From assembly GCA_027487315.1 (NCBI GenBank), contig JAIYDW010000255.1:1-52931 (forward strand): a DNA stretch of 52,931 bases. Direction: 5' to 3'. A program made the position numbers and the translations under genes. Shown piece by piece: positions 16,001 through 51,495 of the stretch. Origin of the DNA: Verrucomicrobiaceae bacterium. Its GTDB lineage: Bacteria > Verrucomicrobiota > Verrucomicrobiia > Verrucomicrobiales > Verrucomicrobiaceae. The first letter of the stretch is position 1. The number at the start of each line of letters is the position of its first letter. Below the pieces are notes generated by a model, which was given only the letters and a program-made list of their open reading frames with translations, searched no databases and was not told the origin of the DNA.

Positions 16001-19000
16001 GGGTTGGCCGGAAACGAGGTCTTTTTCCGTCCGACGGATACGGTGGTGACGGCGACGCCGGGGGAGGCGAATAGGGTACCTGAGTTTTTGGGGGAGGTGG
16101 CGCCACTGGAGTTCAGTCATCCGCATGGATTTTATGAGAAGGGATTTGCGCTGGCGATTCGTTCGGTCACCCCTGGGATGAGTGTTCGATACACCTTGGA
16201 TGGTTCGACGCCGACGGCGACTAGCGGGAGGCTTTACACGGGACCGCTGCCGATCAGGAGGACGAGCATCGTGCGGGCGGTGGGGTTCAGGGCGGGGTAT
16301 GAGCCAACGGAAGTGATCACGAACAGCTATCTGTTTTTAGATGATGTGATCGTGCAGTCTCGGGGAGGAGCGCCGCCGTCGCGTGAATGGCCTTTGGGGA
16401 CGGTGAATGGCCAAGTGTCCGATTATGGCATGGATCCGGAGATCGTGGACAGTAAGAACACTGCGATTGGGGGCATTGAGCAGGTCAAGTCAGCCTTGAG
16501 AGCGATCCCGACACTGTCGGTGGTGACGGATCTGCCGAATTTGTTTTCGATTGATTCGGGGATTTGGGTCAATCCGTTTGGCCGTGGAGAGGCGTGGGAG
16601 CGGCCGGCTTCAATCGAGATGATTGGAGACAGCGGACCGGGCGGGGGATTTGGCGTGAATTGCGGACTACGACTGCGCGGTGGATTTAGCAGGAGTGGAG
16701 ACAATCCCAAACATTCGTTCCGGTTGTTTTTCAGGAGTCGATACGGGGTGGCGCGGTTGGAGTATCCTTTGTTTGGAGAAGAGGGGGCATCAAGCTTCAA
16801 CAAGATGGATCTTCGAACGGCGCAGAACTACTCATGGTCGTTTGGGGGGGATGGCAACAACACGTTTCTGAGGGAGGAAAGCGCACGAGAGATGCAGGGG
16901 GCGATGGGGCAGCCGCATACGCGGAGCCAGTATTATCATCTGTATTTGAACGGGCAGTATTGGGGGCTTTACGAGACGCATGAGCGGCCTGAGGCGAGTT
17001 TTGGCGAGAGCTATCTGGGGGGGAATGAGGAGGACTATGATACGGTGAAGGGGGAGCAAGATCAGGGCTACATCACCGGGGTAACTGATGGCAATCTGGA
17101 TGCGTGGGAGGCGCTGCGGGTGAAGGCGAGAGCGCACTTTGCGAGTCCGAACGATGCCAGTTTTTTTGCGATGCAGGGGTTGGCGGCGGATGGAAAGACG
17201 CGGACGAATGATCCGGTGCTGCTTGATGCGGAGAATCTGATCGACTACATGCTTCTGACCTTTTGGGCGGGGAATCTGGATGGAGCCACGTCTGCCTTTC
17301 TTGGGGATGAGCGTGCTAACAATTGGTTTGCGGTGCGGAATCGGCTGGGGGTGAGCGGCGGCTTCAAGTTTTTGGCGCATGACTTTGAGCACACGTTTTT
17401 CAATGTGGACGAAGATCGAACAGGGCCCTTTGACGCAGGAAATCGGACGTTGGTCGAAACCTACAATCCGATGTTTTTGCATCATGACTTGCGCCCAAGC
17501 GGGGAGTACCGGATGCTTTGGGCGGACCGGGCGCAGAAGCATTTGTTCGGGGCTGGGGAGTTGCGCGCGGAGGAGATTCAAAGGCGGATGCTGGAGCGGA
17601 AGGCACTTTTAAACAAGGTGATCATCGCCGAGTCGGCAAGATGGGGGGATTCGAAAATGGGCGATGGTGCACCGCTGACGCGATTGGACTGGGTGAACGC
17701 GGTGGATTATGTGATTGACTCGTTTGTGCCTGAGCGAAGTGGGCGTGTGATCGCGCAGCTGCGCGGAGATGGACTTTATCCGAGTTTTGACGCGCCGGAA
17801 CTGAGTCAATATGGAGGACCCATTTCGAGTGGTGCGGAAGTGGTCATTTCAGGAAATGGGGGCGAAGTGTATTTTACGCTGGATGGAAGTGATCCCCGGC
17901 TTGTCGGTGGTGCATTGAATACGAATGCCGAGAATTATGTGAGCAGTTCGGAGACGATTACATTGGTGCCATTTGGTCAGGACTGGAAGTATCTTGGAGA
18001 TGGTAGCGATCAGGGAGTCTCGTGGCGGGCGACGGGTTTTGATGATGCGGAATGGGCTAGTGGGCCAGGTGAATTAGGGTATGGTGACGGCGATGAGGTC
18101 ACGGTGGTTCCTTTTGTAGACGTGGATCCATTGGTGCCAGGGGATCAGAAGAATGCGACAACGTACTTCAGAAAACAGTTTCAAGTATCAGACGTCACAG
18201 GTCTGACTGAGGCTTCGCTTCGAGTGCGGTATGACGATGCGGTCATTCTGTATTTGAATGGAGTGGAGGTGGGTCGTTCGCCAAACATCAACAGCAATCC
18301 GAATTTCGATCAGTATGCGAGTGGAGGAACTCCGGATGAGAATGCTTTTTTCACCTTCAACGTCGATCCTGGGTTGTTCATATTAGGCACTAATGTGTTG
18401 GCCGCTGAGGTGCATCAAGCTGATTCAGGCAGCAGCGATATCAGCTTCAATGCGTCGTTGCGTGTCACTAAGACGAACCGGCCAACGCCTCTTTTGCTGA
18501 CTGGCAATGGGAAAAAAACGCTCAAGGTGAGGGCGCTGCAGTCAGGAGAGTGGAGTGCTTTAGTTGAGGGGGTGTTTGATGTGAAACAGGCGTCTGACAT
18601 GACGGTGAGTCTTTCTCCAAGCAGCTCCTTTATTGCTGGCGCATCTACTAGTTGCGTTGTGACAGCGAAAAATGTTGGGGCGGTAGCGAGTGAGGGAGAT
18701 GTTGAAGTTTCGGTTGAGTTGCCGGAAGGTCTTGAGGCGACGGGAATTAGTGGGAGTGGGTGGACGATTGTTCAGGGGAGAGGGACAAGCGTGCGCGCCT
18801 ATCGAGGTGACGTCCTTGGTGCTGGGGCGAGTTTTCCTGACTTGGTGTTGAATGTGATGATTTCAAAAGCGGCACCTGAGTTTGCAACGGTCATTGCTCG
18901 GGTTGGGGGTGGAGGGGAAATCAACACGAGCAACAATCAGTCGAGTCAGATGACTTTCATAGGTTCGACTGGTATGAGTGAGTTTTCGTTTAGTCGGTCT

Positions 19001-36553: not shown

Positions 36554-37726
36554 ATGACTGACATTCCTAGCAATCGATTTACTTTTGGCGATGGAACTCC
36601 TAGCGTGGGGTCGGAAGGGGTTGACTTGGGGCTCATCAGTCCGATGGAAGCGGTGGCAGCACTGTATTCAACGGATAAGGAAGCATTGGCTGATGCCATT
36701 CTTTCAAGCTTGAGTCAGGTGGTTTTTGGCGTGCGCGCCCCGAAACCTGCGAGTCTGCCACAAAGGGTCATGGCTCGTTTGAGCTACCGTCTTTTGAAGC
36801 GGACGACCGTGCGAGAGAAAGCGGGCAGTGAGGGCGACTCGATTAAGGTGAGGAATCGTCTATTGGAGCGGTCACAGCATCCGTATGCGAAATCACTTTT
36901 GGCGTCTTCGAGCAAGGAAACGGAGGCGCTGGTGGAAGGGGGGGATCCGATGAATGGACCCTACATGATGATTGTTCCCGAGATTCGGGCGAGTGCGGTT
37001 CTTTGGGACAAACTCTTTTTCAATTCGGTGCAGGGCAAGGATGTGCAATTGCGATTCATTTTGGAGACCAAGGCGACCTACCTTGAGGCGAAGGCGAGGC
37101 TGGACAAGGGGATGAACATCCGAATTAAGGCCCTCGCGGCGGGGACGGGATTGAGTTTGATTTTGGCTTATGATCAACTGATTCGCGACGGCTATGATTC
37201 CGAGCGAATCTTTGCGCGGATCACGGATCGCGACGAGTCGAACACTGCAAAGTCGAGTCGACTTCTTGGCAAACTGGCGGTCAAGCGAGGCTGGAGGCTA
37301 GGGGGGGGTAAGGAACCGGGAATTGGGGCTGAAACAGAGGACATTTTTCATGAGGCTGCTTTGGGGGTCGACAGAGGAAATCCCTTCGATGTCGTGACGG
37401 CGGTGGGGATTCTTGAGTATTTGCAGGGATCGACCTGTGAGACGACGGAACAGCGTCATGAGATCGAGGAGATGGAAGAGCCAGCGACGGCTCTGCATCT
37501 AGTGGCGAGGCTGTGTGACATGACTCGCCGAGACGGGTCTCTGATTGTGAACACGTACCGACCTCATTCGAGCACACGGATTTTGGAGTTGTTTGGAAAG
37601 CGTTTTGACTACCGGCATGTGATGAACATGAACGCGCTATTGTCCGGGACGCAGTTTTCTATTCCGATTTTGGTTGGTTTCGGTCATATCTATGACGTCA
37701 AGATTTACAAGAAAGAGGTTCAGTAG
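36554..37726 (+). CDS. Putative class I SAM-dependent methyltransferase-like protein
   Basis: The product has 390 residues and no signal peptide. The first 130 or so residues are helical and charged. The second half has a Rossmann-like order: IRIKALAAGTGLSLILA as a motif I candidate, an acidic end of beta-2 (RITDRDES), FDVVTAVGILEYLQG as motif IV, and GSLIVNTYR near motif VI. That is the pattern of class I methyltransferases, although motif I is degenerate (AAGTG rather than GxGxG). A run of eight G lies in the coding sequence at 37301-37308. The gene is the first of two between gltD and the polyketide synthase and could serve that cluster, but the 166- and 95-base gaps leave this open. Confidence 0.6.
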   Translation: MTDIPSNRFTFGDGTPSVGSEGVDLGLISPMEAVAALYSTDKEALADAILSSLSQVVFGVRAPKPASLPQRVMARLSYRLLKRTTVREKAGSEGDSIKVRNRLLERSQHPYAKSLLASSSKETEALVEGGDPMNGPYMMIVPEIRASAVLWDKLFFNSVQGKDVQLRFILETKATYLEAKARLDKGMNIRIKALAAGTGLSLILAYDQLIRDGYDSERIFARITDRDESNTAKSSRLLGKLAVKRGWRLGGGKEPGIGAETEDIFHEAALGVDRGNPFDVVTAVGILEYLQGSTCETTEQRHEIEEMEEPATALHLVARLCDMTRRDGSLIVNTYRPHSSTRILELFGKRFDYRHVMNMNALLSGTQFSIPILVGFGHIYDVKIYKKEVQ

Positions 37727-37892: not shown

Positions 37893-38654
37893 ATGCGTTT
37901 ATTTCAATGGATAGGTTTGATTTCGGTGTTGGTTCTTCCGGGGCTGACTTTGGCTGAGGATACGGTCGCCGCCCTCATGAAGCAGGGGAACGCGCACGAC
38001 GAGAAATTTGAGCCGAAGGAAGCCTTGGGCTTTTATTTGGAGGCAGAGAAGATCGAGCCAGAGAACGTCCAACTGCTTCTTTGCATAGCGAGGCAGTATC
38101 GGCACTGGGCGGCGGATTCGGGGACGCTTGCCGAAAAGATCAAACTGAGCCAAACGGGTAAAGACTATGCGAAGCGGGCGCAGGCCCTGGCACCTGGAGA
38201 CGCTGAGGCGCATTTGTCGGTGGCAATTAGTCATGCCAAAATGGCTCCGATTCTGGATAATAAGGAGAAGGTTGAAGCATCACGTGAAGTGCGTGCGGCA
38301 GTGGACAAATCGATCGAATTGGATCCGAAAAAGGATTTCGCTTGGCATATCTTGGGGGGATGGCATCAGAGGCTCGCCGAGTTGGGAACGGTGAAGCGGG
38401 CACTGGCTAAAATGCTGTATGGGGAGATGCCACCTGCCTCAAACGAGGAGGCGGTAAAGTGCTTTGAGAAAGCGATCGAACTCAACCCGAATCGTTCGAT
38501 TCACCATATCGAATTGGGGCGAACCTATGCGCAGATGGGCAAGTCTGAGGAGGCTAGGAAGTGCATTGAGAAGGGATTGGAGATGCCCAATACGGGCAAA
38601 GATGACCAGGAAGTCAAGCAGCGCGGGCGAGAGACACTGGAAGGGCTGAAATAG
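37893..38654 (+). CDS. Secreted TPR protein of the RMD (regulator of microtubule dynamics) type
   Basis: The product has 253 residues with a Sec signal peptide ending LTLA|EDT at residue 21. The rest is helical TPR repeats. The segment WHILGGWHQRLAEL...ALAKMLYGEMPPAS followed by EEAVKCFEKAIELNPN strongly recalls the core of eukaryotic RMDN proteins, which also have WHxLGxW and FGxPPxAT-like motifs. Bacterial homologues are seen in Bacteroidetes and PVC bacteria as secreted TPR proteins of unknown role. Here it would sit in the periplasm and bind a protein partner. It lies 95 bases before the polyketide synthase gene on the same strand. Confidence 0.7.
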   Translation: MRLFQWIGLISVLVLPGLTLAEDTVAALMKQGNAHDEKFEPKEALGFYLEAEKIEPENVQLLLCIARQYRHWAADSGTLAEKIKLSQTGKDYAKRAQALAPGDAEAHLSVAISHAKMAPILDNKEKVEASREVRAAVDKSIELDPKKDFAWHILGGWHQRLAELGTVKRALAKMLYGEMPPASNEEAVKCFEKAIELNPNRSIHHIELGRTYAQMGKSEEARKCIEKGLEMPNTGKDDQEVKQRGRETLEGLK

Positions 38655-38749
38655 AAGGTCCAGGTGAAACCGGGCCGAATCCGAAAGAATGGTTGTTTTG
38701 GCCGACTTTTGACGGCAATATCGACACCCCGTTCAGTCGGATCTATTTT

Positions 38750-41700
38750 ATGCAAAAAGAAGGCATCGCAATCATCGGAATCGGTTGTCGGTTCCCAGGA
38801 GGAATCAACGACACAGAGTCTTTCTGGAAATTATTAATCGAAGGAAGGGACGCTGTAACCGAGGTGCCGGCTGATCGGTGGAATGTTGAGCGGTTTTATG
38901 ATGCTGAACCTGGAATTATTGGGAAATCGATCGCCAAGCGTGGGGGCTTTCTGGACTCGATCGATCAGTTTGACCCTCAGTTTTTCGGGATCTCGCCTCG
39001 TGAGGCTCCATATATTGACCCTCAGCAACGATTGCTCCTTGAGACGGCGTGGGAGGCGATTGAGGACGCGGGGGTGGTGTTGGATTTGGAAAATGGGACG
39101 GACATTGGGGTGTTCATGGGGGTGTCTCACAATGACTACCAGAACATTCAAGGGGGTTCTTCAGACAGATCGGGGATCAGCTCGCATTCACCGACAGGGT
39201 GCGCGCACAGCATCGCGGCGAATCGGATTTCCTATTGCTTCAATTTGAAGGGCCCAAGCATGTCGATGGACACGGCGTGCTCTTCTGCGCTGACGGCGGT
39301 CGCAGTAGCGTGCGAGCAACTGCGTTTGGGACGCTGCCAAATGGCGATGGCGGGTGGGGTGACGATCATGATCACGCCCGATGGGTTCATTGGGTTTTCG
39401 CAAGCGGGGATGCTTTCGCCGGATGGTCGATGTGCCGCGTTTGATGCTTCGGCGAATGGGTTTGTAAGAGGTGAAGGAGCGGGTGTGGTTTTGTTGAAGC
39501 CCTTGGAGCAGGCTCTGGCGGATGGTGATCCGATTCACGGAATCATCGTTGGAACCAGCATGAATCAGGATGGGCATACGAATGGGATATCGTTGCCATG
39601 TCCGGATGCGCAGGCGCGATTGGTTAAGGATGCGTGTGCTGATGCGGGGATTGATCCTGCCCAAATTGGGTATGTGGAGGCTCATGGAACGGGGACTGCG
39701 GTGGGGGATCCGATTGAAGCGACAGCACTGGCCGAGGCGTTGTGCGAGACCCGGAAGGTGCCGTTGGCGATGGGTTCAGTGAAAACAAACCTGGGCCATT
39801 TGGAGACCGCTGCTGGAGTGGTCGGTTTGGTCAAGGGATTGCTGGTGCTGAAGCATCGTCAGATTCCCGCGAGTCTGCACTTTGACACGCCGAGTGAGCA
39901 CATTGATTTTGAGGCTTTGAAGCTGCGGGTGCCGACGAGTTTGGAGGCATTCCCAGAAATTCCCGGGCCGTGTCTGGTGGGGGTGAATTCGTTTGGATTT
40001 GGTGGTGCGAATTCGCATGTGATCTTGCAGGAAGCGCCTGCACTGAAGAACGTGAAGCATGAGCCGGTGTCGGCCTCAAGACCTTGGCCGTTTGTGTTTT
40101 CGGCGCGGTCTGAGAAAGCTTTGGCTGATGGAGCCTTGCGGCTGAGCGAGTGGATTGAGGATCACTCGAAGAGCAATGGCAAATCGCCAATGTTGCCAGC
40201 CCTGGTTTACAACCTGGGAGCGCGGCGCAATCATCATGCGTATCGAATCACTTCACTTGCGAGGACGACGGAGGAATTGGTGCAGGAGTTGCATGCCTAT
40301 GCGGCGGATCCGTCGAGCAGTCCGTTCACCAGTTCGTTCACGCCTCGCCCCGAGCGTGCGTTGCGAGTTGGTTTTGTGATGAGTGGTCAGGGGCCGCAAT
40401 GGTGGGGGATGGGCCGGGAATTGATGGTCCATGAGCCGGTGTTTCGGCGGACGATGGAGGCATGCGCGGCGGCGATGAAGCCGTATGCAAGCTTTTCACT
40501 TTTGGAAGAACTTGGGAGGGATGAGGCGGATTCGAGGATGCAGCAGACTGAGATTGCGCAGCCGGCGATTTTTGCGATGCAGCTGTCTTTGGCGGAGCTT
40601 TGGAAATCGAAGGGGGTTCAGCCCGCGGCGATTGTTGGGCACAGTGTGGGAGAGATTGCCGCGGCGTGTGCGGCGGGCATGTTGAGTCTTGAAGAAGGTG
40701 CGCGTGTGATTGTGCTGCGGGCGCGCTTGATGCATGAGTGCGCGCGTGGAGACGGCACCATGCTGGCGGTTGGTTTGACTGAAGAGGATGCGTTGGCGGT
40801 GATTGCCAAACATGATCGCACGGTGAGCATTGCTGCTTTCAATGGACCGAAGTCCTTGACCTTGTCGGGGCCAAAGAGCTCTCTGGAGGCGATCCAGGCG
40901 GAGCTTGAAGGGCGGTCGGTTTTTGCCCGATTCGTGCGGGTGGATCATCCTTTCCACCATGCGATGATGCAGCCAGCGGCGGATGCTTTGACGGCGGCGT
41001 TAAAGGACTTGAAGCCGGAAGCTGAGACGGTGCCCTTTTTTAGCACGGTGAGTGGTCAGCGTTGCTCCGGGGCGGAGTGTGTGGCGGCGCATTGGGGGCG
41101 CGGCATTCGGCAGGCGGTTCAATTTGTGTCAGCGGTCAATGCGGTGGCTGATTTTGGAGTGGATGTGTGGTTGGAAATCAGCTCGCATCCGGCGCTTTCC
41201 ATGTCGATCCAAGAGTGTCTTGGAGCGCGCAATCAAAAAGCCCCGGTGACGGCTTCGGTTCGCCGTGAGCGCGAGTTCGAGACCTTTTTGGATGCGGTTC
41301 TGGCGCTGCATCGCGCGGGAGTGGTGGTGGATTTTGCAGCGATGACGCCGTCGCGTGAGTTGCTTTCTTTGCCAGCCTATGCGTGGGATCGGAGCCGTTG
41401 GTGGCACGAGTCGAGTGAATTGAGGGACGGGCGTTTGTCTCCTGGAGGGAAGGGGCTTTTGGATTCGCGGATGCCGAGGGCAACGCCGACATGGGTGACT
41501 CGCTTCGACAGCCGACACATGTCGTATTTGCGCGACCATAAGGTCGACACGCACATTGTTTTTCCAGGGGCTGGATTTGTTGAGATGGCCTTGGAGGCGG
41601 GAGTGCAGTTGTTTGAGGGGCGGCCCTTTGCGATTGAGGATTTTGAAATTCGCAAACCTCTGATTTTGCCGGATCCACCGACGGGTTTGACGATGGAACT

Positions 41701-44700
41701 GACCTATGAGCCGAACGAGCGGACGTTTACGATTCAAAGCAAATTTGAGCAGGCGGCGTCCTGGTCTGTGCATGTCGTTGGTTCGATGAGAAGTGAGCGA
41801 ACCGAGTCCACGTTTGCTCAAACGGTCTGGCAGGCGCCGGGCGCTGACGAGGAAGCGGAAGGGGTTGGGCAATTCTATGGTCACATGAGCGACCTGGGAC
41901 TGCGCTACGGGGAAGAGTTTCGGGCAGTGAGGGAATTGGCTGCTGGGGGAGGGAAGTCCACGGGCAAGGTGGCGTTGACGGAAGCAACTGGAAAGCGAGC
42001 CGCCGAGTATGCCTTGCATCCGGTGCTGCTGGATGCCGCGCTGCACGTGTTTTCCGCAGGTGCGAAAACGGTGGAAGATCGCAAGGCGAAGATGAAGCTG
42101 CCTGTTCGATTTGCGAAGATCCTTTTCCTGCGTTCGCCAGGGGCGTCGAGCCGGGTCAATGCGCGGGTTTTGCACTTCAACGAGGAACTGATTGAGGGGC
42201 GGATTGCGCTCTATGATGACGCGGGTCAGCCTTGCGTTCTTGTGGACGGGTTCCGTGCGATCAGCATGGCGGCGGCCCGTCGCCCGGGGGCTTCTGGAGG
42301 TGGGCGTGACTTGCTGTATCACGTGGATTGGGAGCGGTCGCAATCGACGACTGCCCCTTCGAAGATTGCTCCCGTTCCGCTAAAACAACTGCACAACACG
42401 GCGACTGCCACTCTTGAAGAGATTTTGAGTGTCCGCGGGCGTGAGGAGCTTGAGGGGGTTTTGAGGGCGGAGGATGAACTGGCTGCGGCGCAGATTGCGT
42501 CCGGGTTGGCGGCGATGGGTGTGAGTGAAAAACTCAAGGCTGGATTCAGTGCGGAATCGCTGGGTGTTGCGCCGGGTATGCAGACGGTATTCGGGCGGTT
42601 GATGTCGAAGCTGGTGGGACGCGGTCTGTTGACGGGCAAAGGAGGCAAGTTCAAGGCGACGGCCGCCTTTGGACAGGCTGCCGAGTCGGCGAATGGACTG
42701 TTGAAGTACTTTGTTGAGAATCATCCGGGGCATTTGCCTGAAGGATTGTTGTGTGAATCCACTTGCGCGGAATTGGGTCCGATCCTGCGGGGCGAAAAAG
42801 ACGCTGTGCAGATTTTGTTCAGCGGGCCCGGGGCCGAATTGCTGGATCAGTTTTATGGTGACGGGCTTCTGGCAAGTCACTGGATGGCAGCGATTACGAG
42901 CGCTGTTCAGGAGTCGGCCCGTCAGTTGCCTGAGGGGCGTGGATTGCGGATTCTGGAGGTTGGTGCCGGCACGGCGGGTCTGGCAGCGCAATTGCTGCCG
43001 CTCATTGAGCGCGGAGTGCACCACTACACGTTCACCGATGTTTCTGCCGGGTTCTTCCCCAGTGCCAACCAGAAGTTGGCGGCGTATCCCGAGGTCGATT
43101 ACAAGATCTTCGATTTGGAGAAGTCGCCCATTGATCAGGGATTTGAGGAGGGGAGCTATGATTTCATTGTGGGAACCAATGTGCTGCATGCCGTGGCGGA
43201 TGTGCGGGTGACCCTGGCTGGGCTGCTTGAAGTGTTGAAGCCTGGTGGGACTTTGATGTTCATGGATGTGGCGACGCCGCAGCTTTGGACGGAAGCGGTG
43301 TTTGGATTGACGAGTGGCTGGTGGCATCTCACGGACCGTGACTTGCGGCCCGAGCAACCGCTTTTGCAGCGGGCTCAATGGGAGGCGGTGCTGCGCGAAG
43401 TGGGCTTTGCAGAAACGCTTTCGATGCCAGGTCTGATGGGACCTGATGGCGAAGGACAGATTGCGATTCTTGCCCGGAAGGCTGAATTGGTCGGCGATGC
43501 CGATGTGCAAGCGGTTGAGACCGATGCAGGTGTTGAGTCATCGTGGGTGGTGTTTGCAGACGAGGGCGGTGTGGGTGCCCAATTGGCGGCTCGCGTGAAA
43601 GCGGCAGGGGCACGTTGCCGAGTTGTTCAGCGTGGCAAGTCTTTCAAGCAGGTGGGCGATTTGTACACGCTGCGTTCCGATCAGGTCGAGGATTACAAGA
43701 AGTTGTTCGCCGAGATGTTGGTGGACGCGCCACCTGAGCATCTGGTTTATTTGTGGTCGCTGGATGAGAAGACGGGAATGGGTGCGGACGATTCCTTGAT
43801 GGGGATTGACGCCTTGTTGCATCTGACGCATGCCCTGGAGGAATCCATGGCGGTGGCGAAACTGCGGATGGATCTGGTCACTCGGGGTGCGCAACCGGTT
43901 GGGGCGGAGATGGGGGCGACGGCCGTGGCGCAAGCGCCAGCGATTGGGATTTTCCGGGTGATTTTGGGCGAGCACCCGAACTTTGCCTGCCGCGGCATTG
44001 ACCTGCCACCTGTGGCGGCTGATTCGGATTTGGAATTGCTTTGGAATGAGTTGCTGATGGAGAACTCAGAACGGGAAGTGGCGTTGAGGGGCGAAGCACG
44101 TTATGCGCAACGTCTGTCGCGCGGGCTTTCAACGCGTGAGCAACGGTTGGACGCGTCGGTGCCGCTGCGTTTGGAATCGAAAGAGCGGGGATTGCTAGAC
44201 AGCTTGAAGTTCACGGCGTTCCCAATGCCGGTTTGTTCTCCAGATGAGGTGCTGATCAAGGTCAAGGCAGCCGGGATGAACTTCCGGGATGTGCTGAAAG
44301 CCTTGGCGCTTTATCCTGCTGAGACCATTGATGCGCGCATTTTTGGTGACGAGATTGCCGGGGAAGTGGTGGCAGTGGGTTCGGAAGTGAAGCACCTCGC
44401 GCCAGGGGATCGTGCCTTTGGTCTGGCGGTGTTTGGCTTGGCAACCCACAGTTTAGCGCGTGCGGCAGACGTGAGGCCGATTCCGGGTGACTTGACATTC
44501 GAGGAGGCGGCGACGCTTCCGGTTGTGTTCATGACGGCATGGCACGCACTCAAGACGGTGGCACGGATGAAAGCAGGAGAGGTGATCCTGGTGCATGCGG
44601 GCGCAGGTGGTGTAGGCATGGCGGCGATTCAGATTGCGCACCATTTGGGCGCTGATGTGATCGCTTCTGCGGGTAGTGCGACGAAGCGTGCTTTGTTGAA

Positions 44701-46405
44701 GACCCTGGGTGTCAAATATGTGATCGATTCCAGAAAGGGAGACTTTACGGAGACGGTGATGGATCTGACAGCGGGACGGGGTGTCGATGTGGTGCTGAAT
44801 GCGCTGGCGTCGGAAGCGATCCCGATGGGACTGTCTTGTTTGGCCGAGTTTGGGCGGTTTATTGAAATCGGCAAACGTGACATCTATCAAAACTCTCGTC
44901 TGCCGCTGTGGGCGCTGCGTCGCAATGCCTCGTTCCATGTGGTAGCGATGGATGCGGTGTTTGCTGGGGACGCGGAGCAGACCCGCGAATTGATGGCGGA
45001 GATTTCCGGATTGGTGGAGCAGGGAGCGTTGACAGCGCTGCCGTATCGCTCATTCCCTGCAAGTCGGATTGATGCGGCATTCCGGTTGATGGCGGGAGGC
45101 AAGCACACTGGGAAAGTGGTGGTGGCGTTTGCCGACTCGTTTGTGCAGCACCGAGGGGAGCCGCCCCTGCCTCCATTTGAAGTGAAGGCGGATGGAGCTT
45201 ACCTGATCACGGGTGGCTTTGGTGGGTTTGGCAAAGTGTTGTCCGAATGGTTGGTGGAATGCGGAGCGAAGCATTTGGTGTTGTCGAGTCGAAGCGGAGC
45301 GTCCACACCTGAGGCCCAGGCCTTTGTGGACAAGCTAACGGCTGACGGGATCAAGATCACGGTGATCAAGGCCGATATTGGTGTGCCAAAGGATGTGAAG
45401 AGCCTGATCAAGAAGGCTGCATCAGGCAAGATTCCTCTGAAAGGGGTGTTCCATCTGGCCATGGTCATTGATGACGCGCCATTGTCCGCGCTGACCCCTG
45501 AGCGGTTGCGAGTGGTGATGGCTCCGAAAGCTCATGGGGCGTGGTTGCTCCATGAGGAGACGAAGGCGATGAATCTGGATTGTTTTGTGATGTTCTCGTC
45601 GGTTTCGAGCATCTTTGGGAATCCGGCCCAGGGCAATTATGCGGCGGCGAACGCGTTCCTTGATTCGCTGGCTCATCATCGACGTGCGCTTGGACTTCCG
45701 GCTTTGGCGATCAACTGGGGTGTGTTGGGCGGCGAAGGCTATGTGGCACGCAACGGGCGTGTGGCGGAGTTCCTGGCGCGTCAGGGCACGGCGGCATTGA
45801 CTCCGAAGGAGGTGACCTCTTTGATGGAGTCGTTCCTGACAGCGAATGCGACTCAGATGGCGGCGATCCGAGTGGATTGGGCCAAGTGGCGTCAGTCGTT
45901 CCGGGGGATGCAGGACAATCCGCTGGTGCAGCGCATTTTTGAATCGGGAGTTGAGGTTCAGGAGTCGGGCGGCGGCAGCAGTGACTGGCGTCAGAAGATT
46001 CAGTCGGCGGGTCCAGATGAGCGTGAAGACGTGATTGGGCAAGCGGTTCGGGATGTTGTGGGGTCGGTTCTTCGGGTGAAACCTGACAGTCTGCGCAATG
46101 ATCAACCGCTGACGGATCTCGGATTGGATTCGTTGATGGGGGTCGAGATTGAAAACCTACTGGAGAGTTCGGTGGGTGTGGCCTTGCCGCCAACGAGTTT
46201 GATGCGAGCGAGGACGATTGGGCAGATTGCGTCGCTCATGTCGGAGCACCTTGGCGGTGCGGATGCGGGTGCGACAGCGGCGAAGCCGGTCGTGGTGGAG
46301 TCTGCTCCAGTTGCCGAAGTGGATCTGGATGCGCTTTCCGATGAGGAGATCGACAACCTTCTAGGTGGGGCACTTGGAGACGAGGTGGAGGCAGCACGCG
46401 CCTGA
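38750..46405 (+). CDS. Single-module highly reducing type I polyketide synthase with C-methyltransferase
   Basis: The product has 2551 residues from ATG 38750 (MQKEGIAIIGIGCRFPGG); a TTG frame start 19 codons upstream is unlikely. Domains (approximate residues): KS 5-427, with Cys177 in DTACSSAL plus HGTGT and NLGH; AT 539-829, with Ser632 in GHSVGE and an HPFHH motif closer to malonyl than methylmalonyl ATs; DH 904-1174, His930 and Asp1095; cMT 1310-1577, with ILEVGAGTAG near 1401; a structural KR-like linker; ER 1804-2127, with AGAGGVG and Tyr1855; KR 2144-2347, with GGFGGFG, Tyr2297 and an Asp-containing IDDAPL motif; ACP 2421-2502, with pantetheine Ser2461 in LGLDSLM. All catalytic residues are present. 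There is no thioesterase and no docking domain. It likely works iteratively to build a saturated, methyl-branched acyl chain. The next gene, 3 bases on, is the candidate release enzyme. Confidence 0.93.
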   Translation: MQKEGIAIIGIGCRFPGGINDTESFWKLLIEGRDAVTEVPADRWNVERFYDAEPGIIGKSIAKRGGFLDSIDQFDPQFFGISPREAPYIDPQQRLLLETAWEAIEDAGVVLDLENGTDIGVFMGVSHNDYQNIQGGSSDRSGISSHSPTGCAHSIAANRISYCFNLKGPSMSMDTACSSALTAVAVACEQLRLGRCQMAMAGGVTIMITPDGFIGFSQAGMLSPDGRCAAFDASANGFVRGEGAGVVLLKPLEQALADGDPIHGIIVGTSMNQDGHTNGISLPCPDAQARLVKDACADAGIDPAQIGYVEAHGTGTAVGDPIEATALAEALCETRKVPLAMGSVKTNLGHLETAAGVVGLVKGLLVLKHRQIPASLHFDTPSEHIDFEALKLRVPTSLEAFPEIPGPCLVGVNSFGFGGANSHVILQEAPALKNVKHEPVSASRPWPFVFSARSEKALADGALRLSEWIEDHSKSNGKSPMLPALVYNLGARRNHHAYRITSLARTTEELVQELHAYAADPSSSPFTSSFTPRPERALRVGFVMSGQGPQWWGMGRELMVHEPVFRRTMEACAAAMKPYASFSLLEELGRDEADSRMQQTEIAQPAIFAMQLSLAELWKSKGVQPAAIVGHSVGEIAAACAAGMLSLEEGARVIVLRARLMHECARGDGTMLAVGLTEEDALAVIAKHDRTVSIAAFNGPKSLTLSGPKSSLEAIQAELEGRSVFARFVRVDHPFHHAMMQPAADALTAALKDLKPEAETVPFFSTVSGQRCSGAECVAAHWGRGIRQAVQFVSAVNAVADFGVDVWLEISSHPALSMSIQECLGARNQKAPVTASVRREREFETFLDAVLALHRAGVVVDFAAMTPSRELLSLPAYAWDRSRWWHESSELRDGRLSPGGKGLLDSRMPRATPTWVTRFDSRHMSYLRDHKVDTHIVFPGAGFVEMALEAGVQLFEGRPFAIEDFEIRKPLILPDPPTGLTMELTYEPNERTFTIQSKFEQAASWSVHVVGSMRSERTESTFAQTVWQAPGADEEAEGVGQFYGHMSDLGLRYGEEFRAVRELAAGGGKSTGKVALTEATGKRAAEYALHPVLLDAALHVFSAGAKTVEDRKAKMKLPVRFAKILFLRSPGASSRVNARVLHFNEELIEGRIALYDDAGQPCVLVDGFRAISMAAARRPGASGGGRDLLYHVDWERSQSTTAPSKIAPVPLKQLHNTATATLEEILSVRGREELEGVLRAEDELAAAQIASGLAAMGVSEKLKAGFSAESLGVAPGMQTVFGRLMSKLVGRGLLTGKGGKFKATAAFGQAAESANGLLKYFVENHPGHLPEGLLCESTCAELGPILRGEKDAVQILFSGPGAELLDQFYGDGLLASHWMAAITSAVQESARQLPEGRGLRILEVGAGTAGLAAQLLPLIERGVHHYTFTDVSAGFFPSANQKLAAYPEVDYKIFDLEKSPIDQGFEEGSYDFIVGTNVLHAVADVRVTLAGLLEVLKPGGTLMFMDVATPQLWTEAVFGLTSGWWHLTDRDLRPEQPLLQRAQWEAVLREVGFAETLSMPGLMGPDGEGQIAILARKAELVGDADVQAVETDAGVESSWVVFADEGGVGAQLAARVKAAGARCRVVQRGKSFKQVGDLYTLRSDQVEDYKKLFAEMLVDAPPEHLVYLWSLDEKTGMGADDSLMGIDALLHLTHALEESMAVAKLRMDLVTRGAQPVGAEMGATAVAQAPAIGIFRVILGEHPNFACRGIDLPPVAADSDLELLWNELLMENSEREVALRGEARYAQRLSRGLSTREQRLDASVPLRLESKERGLLDSLKFTAFPMPVCSPDEVLIKVKAAGMNFRDVLKALALYPAETIDARIFGDEIAGEVVAVGSEVKHLAPGDRAFGLAVFGLATHSLARAADVRPIPGDLTFEEAATLPVVFMTAWHALKTVARMKAGEVILVHAGAGGVGMAAIQIAHHLGADVIASAGSATKRALLKTLGVKYVIDSRKGDFTETVMDLTAGRGVDVVLNALASEAIPMGLSCLAEFGRFIEIGKRDIYQNSRLPLWALRRNASFHVVAMDAVFAGDAEQTRELMAEISGLVEQGALTALPYRSFPASRIDAAFRLMAGGKHTGKVVVAFADSFVQHRGEPPLPPFEVKADGAYLITGGFGGFGKVLSEWLVECGAKHLVLSSRSGASTPEAQAFVDKLTADGIKITVIKADIGVPKDVKSLIKKAASGKIPLKGVFHLAMVIDDAPLSALTPERLRVVMAPKAHGAWLLHEETKAMNLDCFVMFSSVSSIFGNPAQGNYAAANAFLDSLAHHRRALGLPALAINWGVLGGEGYVARNGRVAEFLARQGTAALTPKEVTSLMESFLTANATQMAAIRVDWAKWRQSFRGMQDNPLVQRIFESGVEVQESGGGSSDWRQKIQSAGPDEREDVIGQAVRDVVGSVLRVKPDSLRNDQPLTDLGLDSLMGVEIENLLESSVGVALPPTSLMRARTIGQIASLMSEHLGGADAGATAAKPVVVESAPVAEVDLDALSDEEIDNLLGGALGDEVEAARA

Positions 46406-46408
46406 TTC

Positions 46409-47794
46409 ATGGAGGAGCAGGACAACCGGGCGAAACTGAAACAGTGGCTGGCGAGCGGAGAAATTCGGCTTCAGCCACTGTCATTCTCGCAGCGCGAATT
46501 GTGGGAGACGTCACCGGTGCCGGTGGGAGACCCAGCGAATCACATTTGCGCATTCATCGAGATCACAGGGGGCATCACACCTGAAGAGTGCGAAGGGGCA
46601 CTGCGGAGGGTGATGGAACGCCAGGAGGCGCTTCGGGTGTCGTTTTTGCCGGGGAAGGATCGGACATTGGAGATGATCCGGACGACTTCCACGCCGCAGT
46701 TGGGGTATCGGGAGTTATCGACGGCTGAAGCACGGCCGGAGGCCCTGGAAGAGGTGCTCAAGGAGACCTACCAGAAGCCTTTCGATTTGGTTCAGGGGCC
46801 GCTTTACCGCGTGGACATGTTGAAGCGGCGAGCGGGGGATCATGTTTTGGCGTTTTCGGTGCATCACTCGATCGCTGATGGATGGTCTTTGGGGGTCTTT
46901 GTCCAGGATTTGTCGACAGCGTATGTGATGGGGCTGAAGGGGATGCGCAAAGCGGTGGCGACGGGGGTGATGGGGCTTTCGGATCAGTTGCCGCCTGTGC
47001 CTCAAACCTACAGTGAATGGTCCGCGTCAGAGCGGGCTTTCTGGCAGCCAGCGGAGATTGAAAAGAGGGCGGGATTTTGGAGGGATCAGCTGCAGGGGGC
47101 TCCGCAGGTTTTCAACGGGTGCACAGAGGTGGTGAGGAATAAAGGACCATTGCAGCGTCTGGTTTCGTCGATGAATCCGAGGTTGACCAAAGCGGTGAGG
47201 GAATTGGCGCAGAAGAATGGGGCCACTCTTTACAGCACTTTGCTGGCGGCTTTTCAGGTGACACTCTGGAAGTGGAAGGGGACGGAAGATTTGGTGGTGG
47301 GAAGTCCGGTGGCGAATCGCAACAAGGCGGCATCACATCAAACCATGGGTTACTTTGCTGGTGTGGTGCCGATTCGAGGGCAGGTGGACCCGGGAAGGGC
47401 GTTTGCGGATCATTTGAAGGAGGTGCACCTCAGAGCGGTCGATTGTTTTGCGAATGCCATGCCATTTGCCGAGATAGCGAAGGTGGTGGGAGAGCGACCT
47501 TCCGGAGTGGTGCATCCGCTTTTTGATGTGCGGTTTGCATTGCAGAATCATCCCGTTCCGGACGTGGTATTGCCGCGAATTTCGACCAAACTGCGCATGC
47601 GTTCCACGGGCACGGCGCGCTTTGATTTGGGGTGTGAAATCACCGAGACGGGTTCTGAATTAGAGGTTGTCTGGCTGTTCCGGCGTGATATGCTTGGGGA
47701 GGCTGAAATACAAGCGTTAGACGCGATGTTTCGTGAGGTAACGACTGACTTGTGCAGCCACCCTGACCGCCGACCCACCGACCTCAAACTATGA
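46409..47794 (+). CDS. Stand-alone condensation-domain acyltransferase
   Basis: The product has 461 residues, a single NRPS-type condensation fold with no A, PCP or TE domain. The catalytic motif HHSIADG lies at 152-158, with His153 as the expected base; RFDLGCEIT near the end corresponds to the usual RFDL-like motif. Free condensation proteins such as mycobacterial PapA5 move acyl chains from a carrier protein to an alcohol or amine. The gene starts 3 bases after the polyketide synthase and ends in a 4-base ATGA overlap with the desaturase, so the three are translated together. By context it releases the ACP-bound chain as an ester or amide. The acceptor is unknown. Confidence 0.88.
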   Translation: MEEQDNRAKLKQWLASGEIRLQPLSFSQRELWETSPVPVGDPANHICAFIEITGGITPEECEGALRRVMERQEALRVSFLPGKDRTLEMIRTTSTPQLGYRELSTAEARPEALEEVLKETYQKPFDLVQGPLYRVDMLKRRAGDHVLAFSVHHSIADGWSLGVFVQDLSTAYVMGLKGMRKAVATGVMGLSDQLPPVPQTYSEWSASERAFWQPAEIEKRAGFWRDQLQGAPQVFNGCTEVVRNKGPLQRLVSSMNPRLTKAVRELAQKNGATLYSTLLAAFQVTLWKWKGTEDLVVGSPVANRNKAASHQTMGYFAGVVPIRGQVDPGRAFADHLKEVHLRAVDCFANAMPFAEIAKVVGERPSGVVHPLFDVRFALQNHPVPDVVLPRISTKLRMRSTGTARFDLGCEITETGSELEVVWLFRRDMLGEAEIQALDAMFREVTTDLCSHPDRRPTDLKL

Positions 47795-48831
47795 CCACTA
47801 CGAGTCCAAAGGATGATCCTCAGGAAGTCGAAGTTTCACCTACTGCAGGGAAGTCCAGAGCACGAGTTCGGGATGAAGAAGATCACGGTAACACGCATTG
47901 GGTGAGTCGGGCGGCGTTTCCGTTGATCGGGCTGGGATTGGTCAGCTCTCAAGTGGCCCTGGGATGGGTGGTTTATCATCAATGGTATTGGTTGGCGGTG
48001 CCATTGGTTGTCTTGGTGAGTCATTTCATGCACGGGGCGTTGATCGGGTTTCATGAGGCATCCCATGGTTTGCTGCGGAAGAACAAGTTTCTGAATGAAG
48101 TGGATGGTGTTCTGGCTGGCGTGTTGAGTTTCATGAGTTTCACGCTTTATCGAGCGGCGCATCAAACGCATCACATGCATTTGGCGACGGAGAAGGACGA
48201 GGAGCTTTGGCCGTTTGTGAATGTGGATACGCCACGTTGGGCGCGTCAGTTGGCGGCTTTCATTGAGTTGAATGCGGGGCTATTGTTTACGCCGTTTCTT
48301 TTTTGGAGGATGTTTTTTCGCAAGGGTTCCTTCATTCGGAGTCGCAAGGTGCGGCGGAAGATTTGGGGTGAGCTGATTTTGATGGTGGTGTTTTGGACGA
48401 TTGTTTTGGTTGCCGTCCAATGGTTTCAGGTTTGGTCCTATTTCCTGTGGTGCTTTGGGGCGCCAGCAGTGATTGCGGGAAACCTGCAAAGCTGGCGGAA
48501 GTATGTCGAGCACATTGGGTTGCACGGGCACACAGCGAAGAGCGCGACGCGGAGCATTATTGCGGATACTTGGTCTGGGAAGTTGCTATCGCTAACGCTT
48601 TTGCATGAGCCGTTTCATGCGGTCCATCATTTGCGGGCGGGCTTGCACCATTACGAGTTGCCACTGCACGCGGATTCGTTGCAGCCGGAGTTTGAAGGTG
48701 AAGTCACTCCGTTTCCGAACTATCGAAGCGCGATCAAACATCTTTTGGGTGAGTTGCGCGATCCAAGGGTTGGGAGTCACTGGCCCGATGACCGGGTTGG
48801 GCACTCGGACAGGGTGGGAATGGCGTCTTGA
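47791..48831 (+). CDS. Membrane fatty acid desaturase family protein
   Basis: The product has 346 residues with a charged N-terminal tail of about 40 residues, then at least four membrane segments. It has the three His boxes of the PF00487 family: HEASH, HQTHH followed by HMH, and HAVHH, with a further HEPFH just before the last. These bind a di-iron centre for O2-dependent desaturation or hydroxylation. Overlapping the condensation gene by ATGA, it most likely acts on the polyketide-derived lipid after or during its assembly. The family also includes sphingolipid and carotenoid enzymes, so the exact reaction is open. Confidence 0.88.
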   Translation: MTTTSPKDDPQEVEVSPTAGKSRARVRDEEDHGNTHWVSRAAFPLIGLGLVSSQVALGWVVYHQWYWLAVPLVVLVSHFMHGALIGFHEASHGLLRKNKFLNEVDGVLAGVLSFMSFTLYRAAHQTHHMHLATEKDEELWPFVNVDTPRWARQLAAFIELNAGLLFTPFLFWRMFFRKGSFIRSRKVRRKIWGELILMVVFWTIVLVAVQWFQVWSYFLWCFGAPAVIAGNLQSWRKYVEHIGLHGHTAKSATRSIIADTWSGKLLSLTLLHEPFHAVHHLRAGLHHYELPLHADSLQPEFEGEVTPFPNYRSAIKHLLGELRDPRVGSHWPDDRVGHSDRVGMAS

Positions 48832-48845
48832 TCCAATCCAATCCA
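48831..48845 (+). repeat. Pentanucleotide repeat (ATCCA)x3
   Basis: Three tandem ATCCA units fill the whole gap between the desaturase stop codon (48829-48831, sharing its last base) and the ATG of the ABC ATPase at 48846. A change in copy number would alter the spacing of these two genes by 5 bases. Confidence 0.7.
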
Positions 48846-49559
48846 ATGAATGAGGCTTCCAAAGGTGTGGGATCGGTGGTTTACGAAGCCCGTGGACTCA
48901 AGAAGAACTATGACGGGGGACAAGTCGCTGCGCTGAGGGGGGTGGACTTCGATATCAGGGAGGGTGAGTTTGTGGCGATTGTTGGACCAAGCGGTTGTGG
49001 GAAGAGCACGTTGCTGCAGATGCTGGGTTCTTTGGACAAGCCGAGCGAGGGGTCGCTTTCATATCGCGGGCGGTTGATTTCTGCTCTTGAAGATCCTTCA
49101 GATTATCGGTCGACCGAGATTGGATTTGTTTTTCAGTCGTTTCATTTGCTGCCGACTTTCACGGTTTCTGAGAATGTGCAGATTCCGATGTTTGAGACGG
49201 GTCTTTCGCGGGGAGAAAGGGAAGTGAGGGCGCATGAGTTGTTGGTGTCTGTGGGCTTGTCACATCGATTGAAGCATTTTCCTTCGGAGCTCTCTGGAGG
49301 GGAGCGGCAGCGGGTGGCGATCGCGCGCAGTTTGGCGAATCGGCCATCGGTGTTGTTGGCGGATGAACCGACGGGGAATCTGGACAGCGAGAATGCGGCG
49401 CATGTGGTTGAGTTGCTTTTGAAGCTGCACCAGGAGCTTGGGATGACGCTGGTGCTGGTGACGCATGACCTGGGGATTGCGGCGCTGGCGACGAGGACGA
49501 TTCGAATGAAGGATGGTCGGGTCGTTGATGAAACCACACCTTTAACGCACGCCTCCTAA
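48846..49559 (+). CDS. ABC transporter ATP-binding protein, LolD/MacB family
   Basis: The product has 237 residues from ATG 48846 (MNEASKGVG). A TTG six codons upstream overlaps the desaturase and is less likely. It has Walker A GPSGCGKST, Q-loop FVFQSFHLLP, signature LSGGERQRVAIAR, Walker B VLLADEPTGNLD and the H-loop VTHD. The subfamily drives mechanotransmission transporters such as LolCDE and MacB, which extract lipoproteins or substrates from the periplasmic face of the inner membrane rather than importing or flipping small solutes. It precedes its permease by 4 bases in the polyketide operon. Confidence 0.92.
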   Translation: MNEASKGVGSVVYEARGLKKNYDGGQVAALRGVDFDIREGEFVAIVGPSGCGKSTLLQMLGSLDKPSEGSLSYRGRLISALEDPSDYRSTEIGFVFQSFHLLPTFTVSENVQIPMFETGLSRGEREVRAHELLVSVGLSHRLKHFPSELSGGERQRVAIARSLANRPSVLLADEPTGNLDSENAAHVVELLLKLHQELGMTLVLVTHDLGIAALATRTIRMKDGRVVDETTPLTHAS

Positions 49560-49563
49560 CGCC

Positions 49564-50679
49564 ATGACCTTTTTTACCGTAGTCGTTCGAGGATTGATTC
49601 GCCGCCCGGTGCGGACGGGGTTGACGTTATTGGGCATTTCGATTGGGATCGGTGCGGTGGTGACTTTGGTGGGTATGTCCTGGGGTTATGAGAAGAGTAT
49701 TGGTAAGCAATTGGATGTCATCGGGATCGACGTGGTGGTGAGCAACATGAGTGGCGGACTGATGCCCAAGGTGTTTGATGAGACTTTGCAAGACAAGGTG
49801 GCAGCCCTGCCAAAGGTTGCCGATACGACGACTGTGTTGATGCTGATGCTCAGCATTGAAGATGCGCCGATGATGATGGTTTCGGGTCGTGAGTGGGGAG
49901 GGTTTACGTGGGAGAAGTTGGAGGTTTTGGAAGGGCGATTGCCGAAGGATGACAAAGAGTTTGCGGTGGTGCTGGGGAAGTTGGCGGCGGAGGTGCTCAA
50001 GAAGAAGGTGGGTGATACGGTTCAGATCGAGGCAGATGAGTTGCCGGTGGTGGGAATTGTAGATGGTCACGCGGTGGTGGAGAATGGGGCGGTCATCCTT
50101 TCGCTTTCGGTGCTGCAGGAGATCTCAAGCAATCAGGGGAAAGTCAATTTTATTGATGTGCGGGTGCCGGAGGGGACACCTGAGAAAGAGGTGATGGAGT
50201 TATGCGAAACGGTGAATGGCCTTTTCCCGGAGGGCCGGGCGAAGCTAGCGAGCGAGGTGGTGGGAACAAGCCAGGGTTATCGACTGGCGCGGGCGATGAG
50301 TTGGAGCACGTCATTGCTGGCGATCATTGTCGGGGTGTTGGGCGTGATGAACACGATGCTGATGACGGTGTTTGAGCGTACGCATGAGATTGGGATTCTT
50401 TTGGCGGTGGGATGGAAACGCCGAAGGATCCTTTATATGGTGCTGTGTGAGTCGGCGTTGCTTGGATTTTTGGGGGGAGTGACGGGAGTGGGGCTGGGGG
50501 CGTTGGGGTTGAAGATTTTGGAGTTCACGCCGGCGATTCGGGGGCTCTTGGAGCCGGATTTGAGTCCTAAGTTGTTGCTGACGTCCGTGGCGATTGCTGT
50601 TGTTGTTGGAGTGGTCAGTGGATTGTATCCGGGGTGGCGGAGTTCCCGCTTGTCTCCGAGCCGGGCTCTTAACTTGTAG
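49564..50679 (+). CDS. ABC transporter permease, MacB/FtsX type
   Basis: The product has 371 residues. One N-terminal membrane helix (about 18-40) is followed by a periplasmic MacB_PCD-like domain (about 45-240) and three C-terminal helices with the FtsX-domain motif FERTHEIGILLAVGWKRRRI. It ends PSRALNL, the usual close of this family. This four-helix topology is shared with LolC/LolE and MacB. It pairs with the ATPase immediately upstream and precedes a LolA-like gene. In context, it should extract a lipidated product from the inner membrane and hand it on. A general lipoprotein role cannot be excluded. Confidence 0.9.
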   Translation: MTFFTVVVRGLIRRPVRTGLTLLGISIGIGAVVTLVGMSWGYEKSIGKQLDVIGIDVVVSNMSGGLMPKVFDETLQDKVAALPKVADTTTVLMLMLSIEDAPMMMVSGREWGGFTWEKLEVLEGRLPKDDKEFAVVLGKLAAEVLKKKVGDTVQIEADELPVVGIVDGHAVVENGAVILSLSVLQEISSNQGKVNFIDVRVPEGTPEKEVMELCETVNGLFPEGRAKLASEVVGTSQGYRLARAMSWSTSLLAIIVGVLGVMNTMLMTVFERTHEIGILLAVGWKRRRILYMVLCESALLGFLGGVTGVGLGALGLKILEFTPAIRGLLEPDLSPKLLLTSVAIAVVVGVVSGLYPGWRSSRLSPSRALNL

Positions 50680-50685
50680 TCTTTG

Positions 50686-51495
50686 ATGATCATGAATGCC
50701 TTTTTTCAATCGATGGTTGGTCTGATGTGGCGGTCTTCCGCGGTGGTGGGTTTGGGGCTGGTCTTGACGTGTTCGGCCCAAGAGGGCGAGCTTTCGGCCA
50801 AGGCGCTGGCAGAAAAGATGAGTGCTGCAGTTCTGGACAATGCTTCCAGTGTGCGGTTGAAGTTGGAATTCACGCCAGCGCAGGGAGGCGAAAAGGTGGT
50901 GTTGCAGTTGCAAGCGAATGCCAATCGGACTGCTGCTGCTTCGGATATCCTTTACAAGGTTCTTTGGCCGAAAGAGCGGAAGGGTGAGGGCTTCGTGTTG
51001 CGGAAGGCGGCGAACCAAGCTGCGACGGGTTCGGTTTTGACCCTGCCGGATACGGTGACGCCTTTGACTGGGAGCGGAATGAAAGAGGGTATCTTTGGTA
51101 GTGCGTTGTCGTATGACGATTTGGTGGGGAACTTTTTTGGTTGGGCCTCGCAAGAGATCGTTGGGACAGAAGTGGTGAACCGTGTGACCTGCCAGATTTT
51201 GGAGTCGAAGCCGGGGAAAGGGGATTACTCGAGTTATGCGAGTGTGCGCAGTTGGATTGATGCCAAACGGATGGTGCCGATCCGCATTGAGAAGTTTGGG
51301 GGCGGTGGAGCCATGGTGAGTCGGATTGTGACGACGCGGGTGGCGAAGGATGATACGAATCGGCAGGTGCCGGCGAGTTTTACCGTGCAGCGTGCGGGGG
51401 AAGAGGCGGTGACGGTGATTGAGGGGTCAAACAGCAAGCATGACGTCACGTTCACGGCAGCGGATTTTTCGATTGAAGCTTTGAAGGCGCCTTGA
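50686..51495 (+). CDS. Periplasmic LolA-like (outer membrane lipoprotein-sorting-like) protein
   Basis: The product has about 269 residues. ATG 50686 and ATG 50692 are both possible starts. A Sec signal peptide ends near TCSA|QEG; Thr before the Cys makes a lipobox unlikely. The mature part has the half-barrel pattern of the LolA-like family, with SYDDLVGNFFGW, an EVVNRVTCQILESKPGKGD strand pair and SWIDAKRMVPIRIEKF. This form is closer to the LolA-like proteins found next to RND or MacB-type transporters than to classical LolA. It begins 6 bases after the permease stop and closes the operon. It is inferred to accept a hydrophobic product from the permease and carry it across the periplasm. 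Confidence 0.82.
   Translation: MIMNAFFQSMVGLMWRSSAVVGLGLVLTCSAQEGELSAKALAEKMSAAVLDNASSVRLKLEFTPAQGGEKVVLQLQANANRTAAASDILYKVLWPKERKGEGFVLRKAANQAATGSVLTLPDTVTPLTGSGMKEGIFGSALSYDDLVGNFFGWASQEIVGTEVVNRVTCQILESKPGKGDYSSYASVRSWIDAKRMVPIRIEKFGGGGAMVSRIVTTRVAKDDTNRQVPASFTVQRAGEEAVTVIEGSNSKHDVTFTAADFSIEALKAP

Follow-up and report, generated by a model that had tools for sequence, protein, structure and literature searches.

What does a bacterium build with a polyketide synthase that is encoded in one tight run with a condensation protein, a desaturase-like enzyme, an ABC transporter and a LolA-like carrier, and where does the product go? Positions 38750-51495 of the window (the whole 52,931-nucleotide stretch of DNA that was analysed, contig JAIYDW010000255.1 of a Verrucomicrobiaceae bacterium) raise this question. 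ORF calling places six genes there on one strand, separated by junctions of +3, -4, -4, +4 and +3 bases, and the gene positions, order, overlaps and domains listed in an initial annotation were all recovered by ORF calling and Pfam searches. We give a probability of roughly 0.62 to the reading that this locus is a dedicated pathway making and exporting an envelope lipid. The six genes and two neighbours are as follows.

36554-37726, plus strand: class I SAM methyltransferase-like protein (homologue distribution, fold comparison)
37893-38654, plus strand: TPR protein, with the methyltransferase on one side and the synthase on the other (Pfam, region alignments)
38750-46405, plus strand: type I polyketide synthase, single module, KS-AT-DH-cMT-ER-KR-ACP (Pfam, motifs, nearest solved relative)
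46409-47794, plus strand: free-standing condensation-domain protein (Pfam, solved-structure matches, HHSIADG motif)
47791-48831, plus strand: PF00487 membrane desaturase/hydroxylase-like protein (Pfam, histidine boxes)
48828-49559, plus strand: ABC ATPase of the LolD/YbbA/MacB group (Pfam, family-model scores, motifs)
49564-50679, plus strand: single-subunit permease with MacB_PCD and FtsX domains, of the type VII ABC kind (Pfam, family models, tree)
50683-51495, plus strand: LolA-like periplasmic carrier, PF17131 (Pfam, predicted structure)

The mechanical reading frame of the synthase opens at a TTG at 38693, and the ATG at 38750 gives a protein beginning MQKEGIAIIG. Pfam assigns it ketoacyl-synthase, Acyl_transf_1, PKS_DH_N/PS-DH, Methyltransf_11/12, ADH_N/ADH_zinc_N, KR and PP-binding domains; the other five proteins match, in order, Condensation, FA_desaturase, ABC_tran, MacB_PCD with FtsX, and LolA_like (PF17131). 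The genes had been proposed to form one transcription unit. Because a scan of the locus for sigma-70 promoter and terminator consensus sequences gave no more matches than shuffled sequence, we infer a single transcript from the spacing and the conserved gene order, which do speak for it.

The six families do occur together beyond this genome. In a protein search, 35 of 115 related genomes proved to have an orthologue of the condensation protein with at least 48% identity; 32 of them belong to the window's own family (host counted), one to family f3 and two to family f4. A clear gap divides these orthologues from NRPS condensation domains at about 30% identity. When 36 regions of relatives were retrieved and all window proteins aligned to each, 30 held all six families together, some split by frameshifts or contig ends, and this repeated order argues that the grouping is not due to chance. 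Cassette proteins are near 50% identical among relatives, junctions are mostly shorter than 40 bases, flanking genes vary between genera, and the six proteins' pairwise identity matrices show correlations of 0.73-0.90 with one another. The set is kept despite rearrangement in genera g2 and g3, where the order is synthase, condensation protein, desaturase, carrier, ATPase, permease, methyltransferase.

Contig ends account for the incomplete sets in L043, L068 and L069. No carrier adjoins the permease in L048 (from G009, a genome 75% complete), the synthase of G039 is cut down to its C-terminal part, and the cassette of G073 is split, with carrier and methyltransferase about 1.6 kb apart on another contig (L058). 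One region of G026 (L060) has synthase and condensation genes only, without desaturase or transport genes; the same genome has a second, complete cassette. In a phylum-wide draw of 388 genomes, condensation orthologues were found in five, all of the window's own family, along with two 29-32% matches inside long reading frames of another family, and a contig search with the same protein returned two congeners only. Among the matches listed from PLSDB plasmids, the sole cross-phylum sample, condensation proteins were only about 28-31% identical and permeases 36% at best. Since the majority of related genomes sampled are without it, the cassette is accessory. By these comparisons it is, on solid grounds, a real, conserved and undescribed unit with a proposed function.

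The initial annotation overlooked a seventh member. Homologues of the 390-residue protein encoded at 36554-37726 are found in 15 of the 115 genomes, all of them cassette carriers, and lie 3' of the carrier or permease gene in most relatives that have one. All 15 genomes fall in one of two deep lineages of the permease tree. Pfam and NCBI family models gave no significant match for the window protein, and some homologues weakly match methyltransferase families. Its structural model, of moderate confidence (pLDDT 70.7), has a predicted class I SAM methyltransferase fold; the best fold matches include the polyketide C-methyltransferases CurJ, PsoF and DszA (Z 15-16 over about 240 residues) and AprA, with other methyltransferases tied. 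C-methylation in trans by this separate enzyme is possible. Whether the TPR gene at 37893-38654 belongs to the cassette is uncertain: it is common to congeners, and a 53% identical match lies upstream of a synthase in L060. Elsewhere in the window, positions 13040-20629 encode a protein of 2529 residues that combines CotH kinase, Calx-beta, lamin-tail, PA14 and InlB-repeat-like domains; HGSNAT_cat and GFO/IDH/MocA domains are encoded by the genes after it.

What the synthase would make can be read in part from its domains. The active-site motifs of KS, AT, DH, ER, KR and ACP, and the SAM motif, are kept in 28-37 orthologues, and between DH and ER the window synthase and 32 orthologues have a methyltransferase domain with the conserved SAM motif ILEVGAGTAGLA. 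Pfam, motifs and conservation together sustain the central claim of a fully reducing, C-methylating synthase joined in one unit to a condensation protein, a desaturase-like enzyme and carrier-type export. The nearest solved relative is the mycocerosic acid synthase MAS, which uses methylmalonyl-CoA and is not known to have an active C-methyltransferase. The conserved SAM-motif domain speaks against a MAS/Pks2-type synthase; among the named NCBI families Pks2 (sulfolipid-1) scores high, but its 1235 bits are far short of the cut-off of 2400. The acyltransferase motif HPFHH, conserved in 30 sequences, is unlike YASH, the signature of methylmalonyl-type acyltransferases, so that malonyl units followed by SAM-dependent methylation would fit, and the domain may prefer malonyl. 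The synthase most likely acts iteratively. On Paraburkholderia and Pseudomonas plasmids (L086, L088), related type I synthases occur among capsule genes and genes for a class I/II-fold aminotransferase and an LTA synthase family protein, a setting that suggests another polyketide envelope-lipid or capsule-anchor locus.

Pfam detects no thioesterase domain in the synthase, and release by the free condensation protein is therefore the most likely route. This protein matches PF00668 and no other Pfam family, and is the sole PF00668 match in the host genome; with no other condensation domain there, the host gives no sign of NRPS. An HHxxxDG motif is kept in nearly all orthologues (HHSIADG in the window protein). 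It had been labelled PapA5-type, after the acyl-transferring protein of PDIM synthesis, which has a condensation fold. That label does not fit: the protein resembles NRPS condensation domains, and its 52 solved matches at E<=0.001, among which PapA5 is absent, are annotated as NRPS or PKS-NRPS condensation-domain proteins. On a plasmid of Deinococcus sp. KNUC1210 (L087, 7950-21117), a related type I synthase is followed directly by a separate condensation-domain protein, with a thioester reductase and an aminotransferase nearby. The next protein of the window cassette carries the histidine boxes HEASH, HQTHH and HAVHH, conserved in its orthologues, and could be either a desaturase or a hydroxylase.

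ATPase and permease together have the hallmarks of a type VII ABC transporter, namely a MacB-like periplasmic core, an FtsX-type C-terminal domain and an ATPase of the LolD/MacB class. The earlier LolD and LolCDE labels express likeness only, and the pair is not a LolCDE equivalog. Against the LolD model (cut-off 308) the ATPase reaches 242 bits, and it also scores against the MacB and DarD models. The permease reaches 40 bits against the lolCE model (cut-off 362), is matched better by the MacB and ADOP models, has PF12704 (1.9e-18) and PF02687 (1.5e-19) domains, and finds its best solved match in MacB. A MacAB-TolC pump was rejected as an identity, since ATPase and permease are separate genes and no MacA-like protein was recognised among the recurring neighbours. 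Plasmid pACIX901 of Granulicella tundricola (L089, 7388-14435) encodes a permease with 36% identity to that of the window, near an ABC ATPase, an outer membrane lipoprotein-sorting protein, an adenylate-forming enzyme, an SDR oxidoreductase and a nucleotide-sugar-binding-domain protein; this may be the same export device, combined in Acidobacteriota with a different set of biosynthetic genes.

The last gene was correctly named as encoding a LolA-like carrier: it scores 67.1 bits against PF17131 (gathering cut-off 30), and its model (pLDDT 86.6) shows a predicted LolA-type half-barrel. The model aligns to 4z48 at Z 27.3, to 3bk5 of V. parahaemolyticus at 26.6 and to LolA3 of P. gingivalis (9tp6) at 26.3, as compared with 13.6 for P. 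aeruginosa LolA and 10-14 for classical LolA/LolB. LolCDE-LolA lipoprotein sorting was rejected as the identity of the system, because the LolD and lolCE scores are below cut-off and the carrier matches PF17131 only, not PF03548. Elsewhere the host genome encodes a canonical PF03548 LolA and two permeases that score 245 and 217 bits for lolCE, where the cassette permease scores 31 in the same comparison; the cassette therefore looks like a separate route and probably does not serve as the housekeeping Lol system. Its operon in the window has no gene for a LolB-like receptor.

The same proteins might be arranged into a different pathway, in which a secreted natural product (a lipopeptide-like molecule or antibiotic amide) is expelled by a MacB-type efflux or self-resistance pump, with the LolA-like protein as periplasmic adaptor. 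MacB-type exporters are frequent in natural-product clusters. The ATPase's scores against MacB and DarD and the kinship of the condensation protein to NRPS domains would also suit such a product. However, neither a MacA-like adaptor nor a TolC-like gene was recognised as a recurring neighbour in the relatives' regions, and the host's single condensation domain gives no hint of NRPS. A LolA-fold carrier suits a membrane lipid more than a soluble product, and the set is kept whole across many genera, unlike antibiotic loci, which are typically patchy. We consider a secreted product unlikely, though it is the strongest of the alternatives to an exported envelope lipid.

The distribution of the permease bears on a second alternative, that the transport trio works for lipoproteins or for envelope lipids in general and just happens to be linked with a synthase whose product remains in the inner membrane. 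A paralogous trio of ATPase, permease and PF17131 carrier, with no synthase beside it, lies at 17148-19880 of contig C94 in genome G000 (L075). This second permease type, 41-49% identical, occurs in eleven genomes including the host; outside G000 it is present in ten relatives, of which a few have no adjoining carrier. Borrelia, too, has a homodimeric MacB-like transporter and a LolA-like protein without a synthase (PMC13078400). The type of transporter is therefore modular, and conservation of the transporter by itself, which would have told against the initial annotation, is seen for the paralogue. It is not seen for the cassette permease, whose orthologues (at least 57% identity) are present in the 35 condensation-positive genomes plus G047 and G109 among the 115. 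Those two are cut by contig ends: in G047 desaturase, ATPase, permease and carrier run into the end, and in G109 the contig begins inside the permease. In the tree, cassette permeases and the stand-alone type form the two sides of one branch with support 98. The cassette permease is thus a lineage apart, tied to the synthase locus in the sampled genomes, and a merely linked transporter is a little less probable still than a secreted product.

An alpha/beta hydrolase gene lies in or beside the cassette in about ten regions (L057, 16780-18564; L047, 11624-13231), recalling the YbbAP-TesA pairing, and an asparagine-synthase-like amidotransferase is a divergent upstream neighbour in about 19 (e.g. 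L056, 2-1477). Acylated proteins are LolA cargo, and these two genes recur beside the cassette in some genera, but the idea that the synthase's fatty acid is attached to a protein or glycan and delivered as an acylated macromolecule is quite improbable, because both genes are missing from the window and no conserved neighbour was recognised as an acceptor protein, protein acyltransferase or glycosyltransferase.

For the preferred reading, an exported envelope lipid, we propose the following course. The synthase would iteratively add malonyl units, which its own cMT domain would methylate and its KR, DH and ER domains reduce, leaving a methyl-branched acyl chain on the ACP. The condensation protein would free this chain by passing it to an acceptor with an amino or hydroxyl group. 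While bound to the membrane, the product would then be desaturated or hydroxylated by the PF00487 enzyme; the separate methyltransferase may also methylate it in one of the two lineages. ATPase and permease, probably as a homodimer, would use the mechanical mode of type VII transporters to extract the lipid from the inner membrane, and the LolA-like carrier would take it up and shield the chain on its way across the periplasm to the outer membrane. Iterative action, the preference for malonyl units, the freeing of the chain by the condensation protein, and the identity, direction and destination of the cargo are the inferred parts; the carrier could instead move a lipoprotein. Counting against this reading are the lack of a LolB-like gene in the operon, the paralogous trio that stands alone, the incomplete sets of L060, L048 and G039, and the moderate confidence of the methyltransferase model. 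More tentatively, and at somewhat below even odds, the outer membrane of Verrucomicrobiales may hold a new class of methyl-branched polyketide lipid delivered by a dedicated route of type VII ABC transporter and PF17131 Lol-like carrier.

How lipids other than lipoproteins cross the periplasm is poorly understood, and the envelope lipids of Verrucomicrobiota have been little studied. Carrier-based lipid export linked to a synthase has until now been proposed only for a few, very different lipids. With one synthase, one transporter and one carrier in a compact cassette, the locus would make it possible to test directly whether polyketide lipids are carried by LolA-type proteins. It would also point to a lipid useful in the chemotaxonomy of part of a widespread environmental family. 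The modular trio, which an acidobacterium also has next to other enzymes, hints that the export device may be a general one.

A search of the open-access literature brought up no described pathway with this gene set, and the systems nearest to it share different parts. Both the aryl polyene cluster, which also has an RND transporter and a LolB-like protein (PMC8253772), and flexirubin loci (PMC11885536) have been proposed to include dedicated LolA-like carriers. Like the cassette, both place acyl-chain genes beside a LolA-like carrier and a membrane transporter, and the product is, or is thought to be, in the outer membrane (PMC8253772; PMC11885536). The aryl polyene ketosynthases, dehydratases and ACPs are dissociated and FAS-like, whereas in the cassette a single type I synthase stands with a condensation protein and a type VII ABC transporter, and a LolB-like protein is lacking. 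Membership in the aryl polyene clusters is ruled out by the single type I synthase and the ABC transporter, and no RND gene was present among the window genes scanned. The PDIM locus (mas, pps, papA5, drrABC, lppX, mmpL7) includes MAS, the synthase's nearest solved relative, and a condensation-fold acyl-transferring protein. PDIM export depends on an ABC transporter, an RND protein and the LolA-fold lipid carrier LppX, so that here, too, exporter and carrier belong to one lipid pathway (PMC11539658). The gene sets are not identical; the DrrABC exporter is type V-like (PMC11539658), and MmpL7 is an RND protein.

The remaining systems resemble the transport half. In E. coli YbbAP-TesA, whose type VII transporter has been proposed to extract hydrophobic molecules (PMC12646458), ATPase and permease belong to the same superfamily, whereas the partner is a hydrolase, not a carrier, and no synthase is linked. 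LolCDE-LolA shares the FtsX-type permease, LolD-like ATPase and LolA-fold carrier; it differs in its PF03548 carrier, where the cassette has a PF17131 carrier and one permease gene. Borrelia BBJ23-29 is a similar transport set without biosynthetic enzymes (PMC13078400) and includes an Omp85-family protein. None of these systems has a type VII transporter and a PF17131 carrier alongside both a type I synthase and a condensation protein. The aryl polyene and flexirubin clusters and the mycobacterial PDIM locus are the closest precedents, and the cassette would be, like them, a case of synthase-coupled lipid export rather than a new category.
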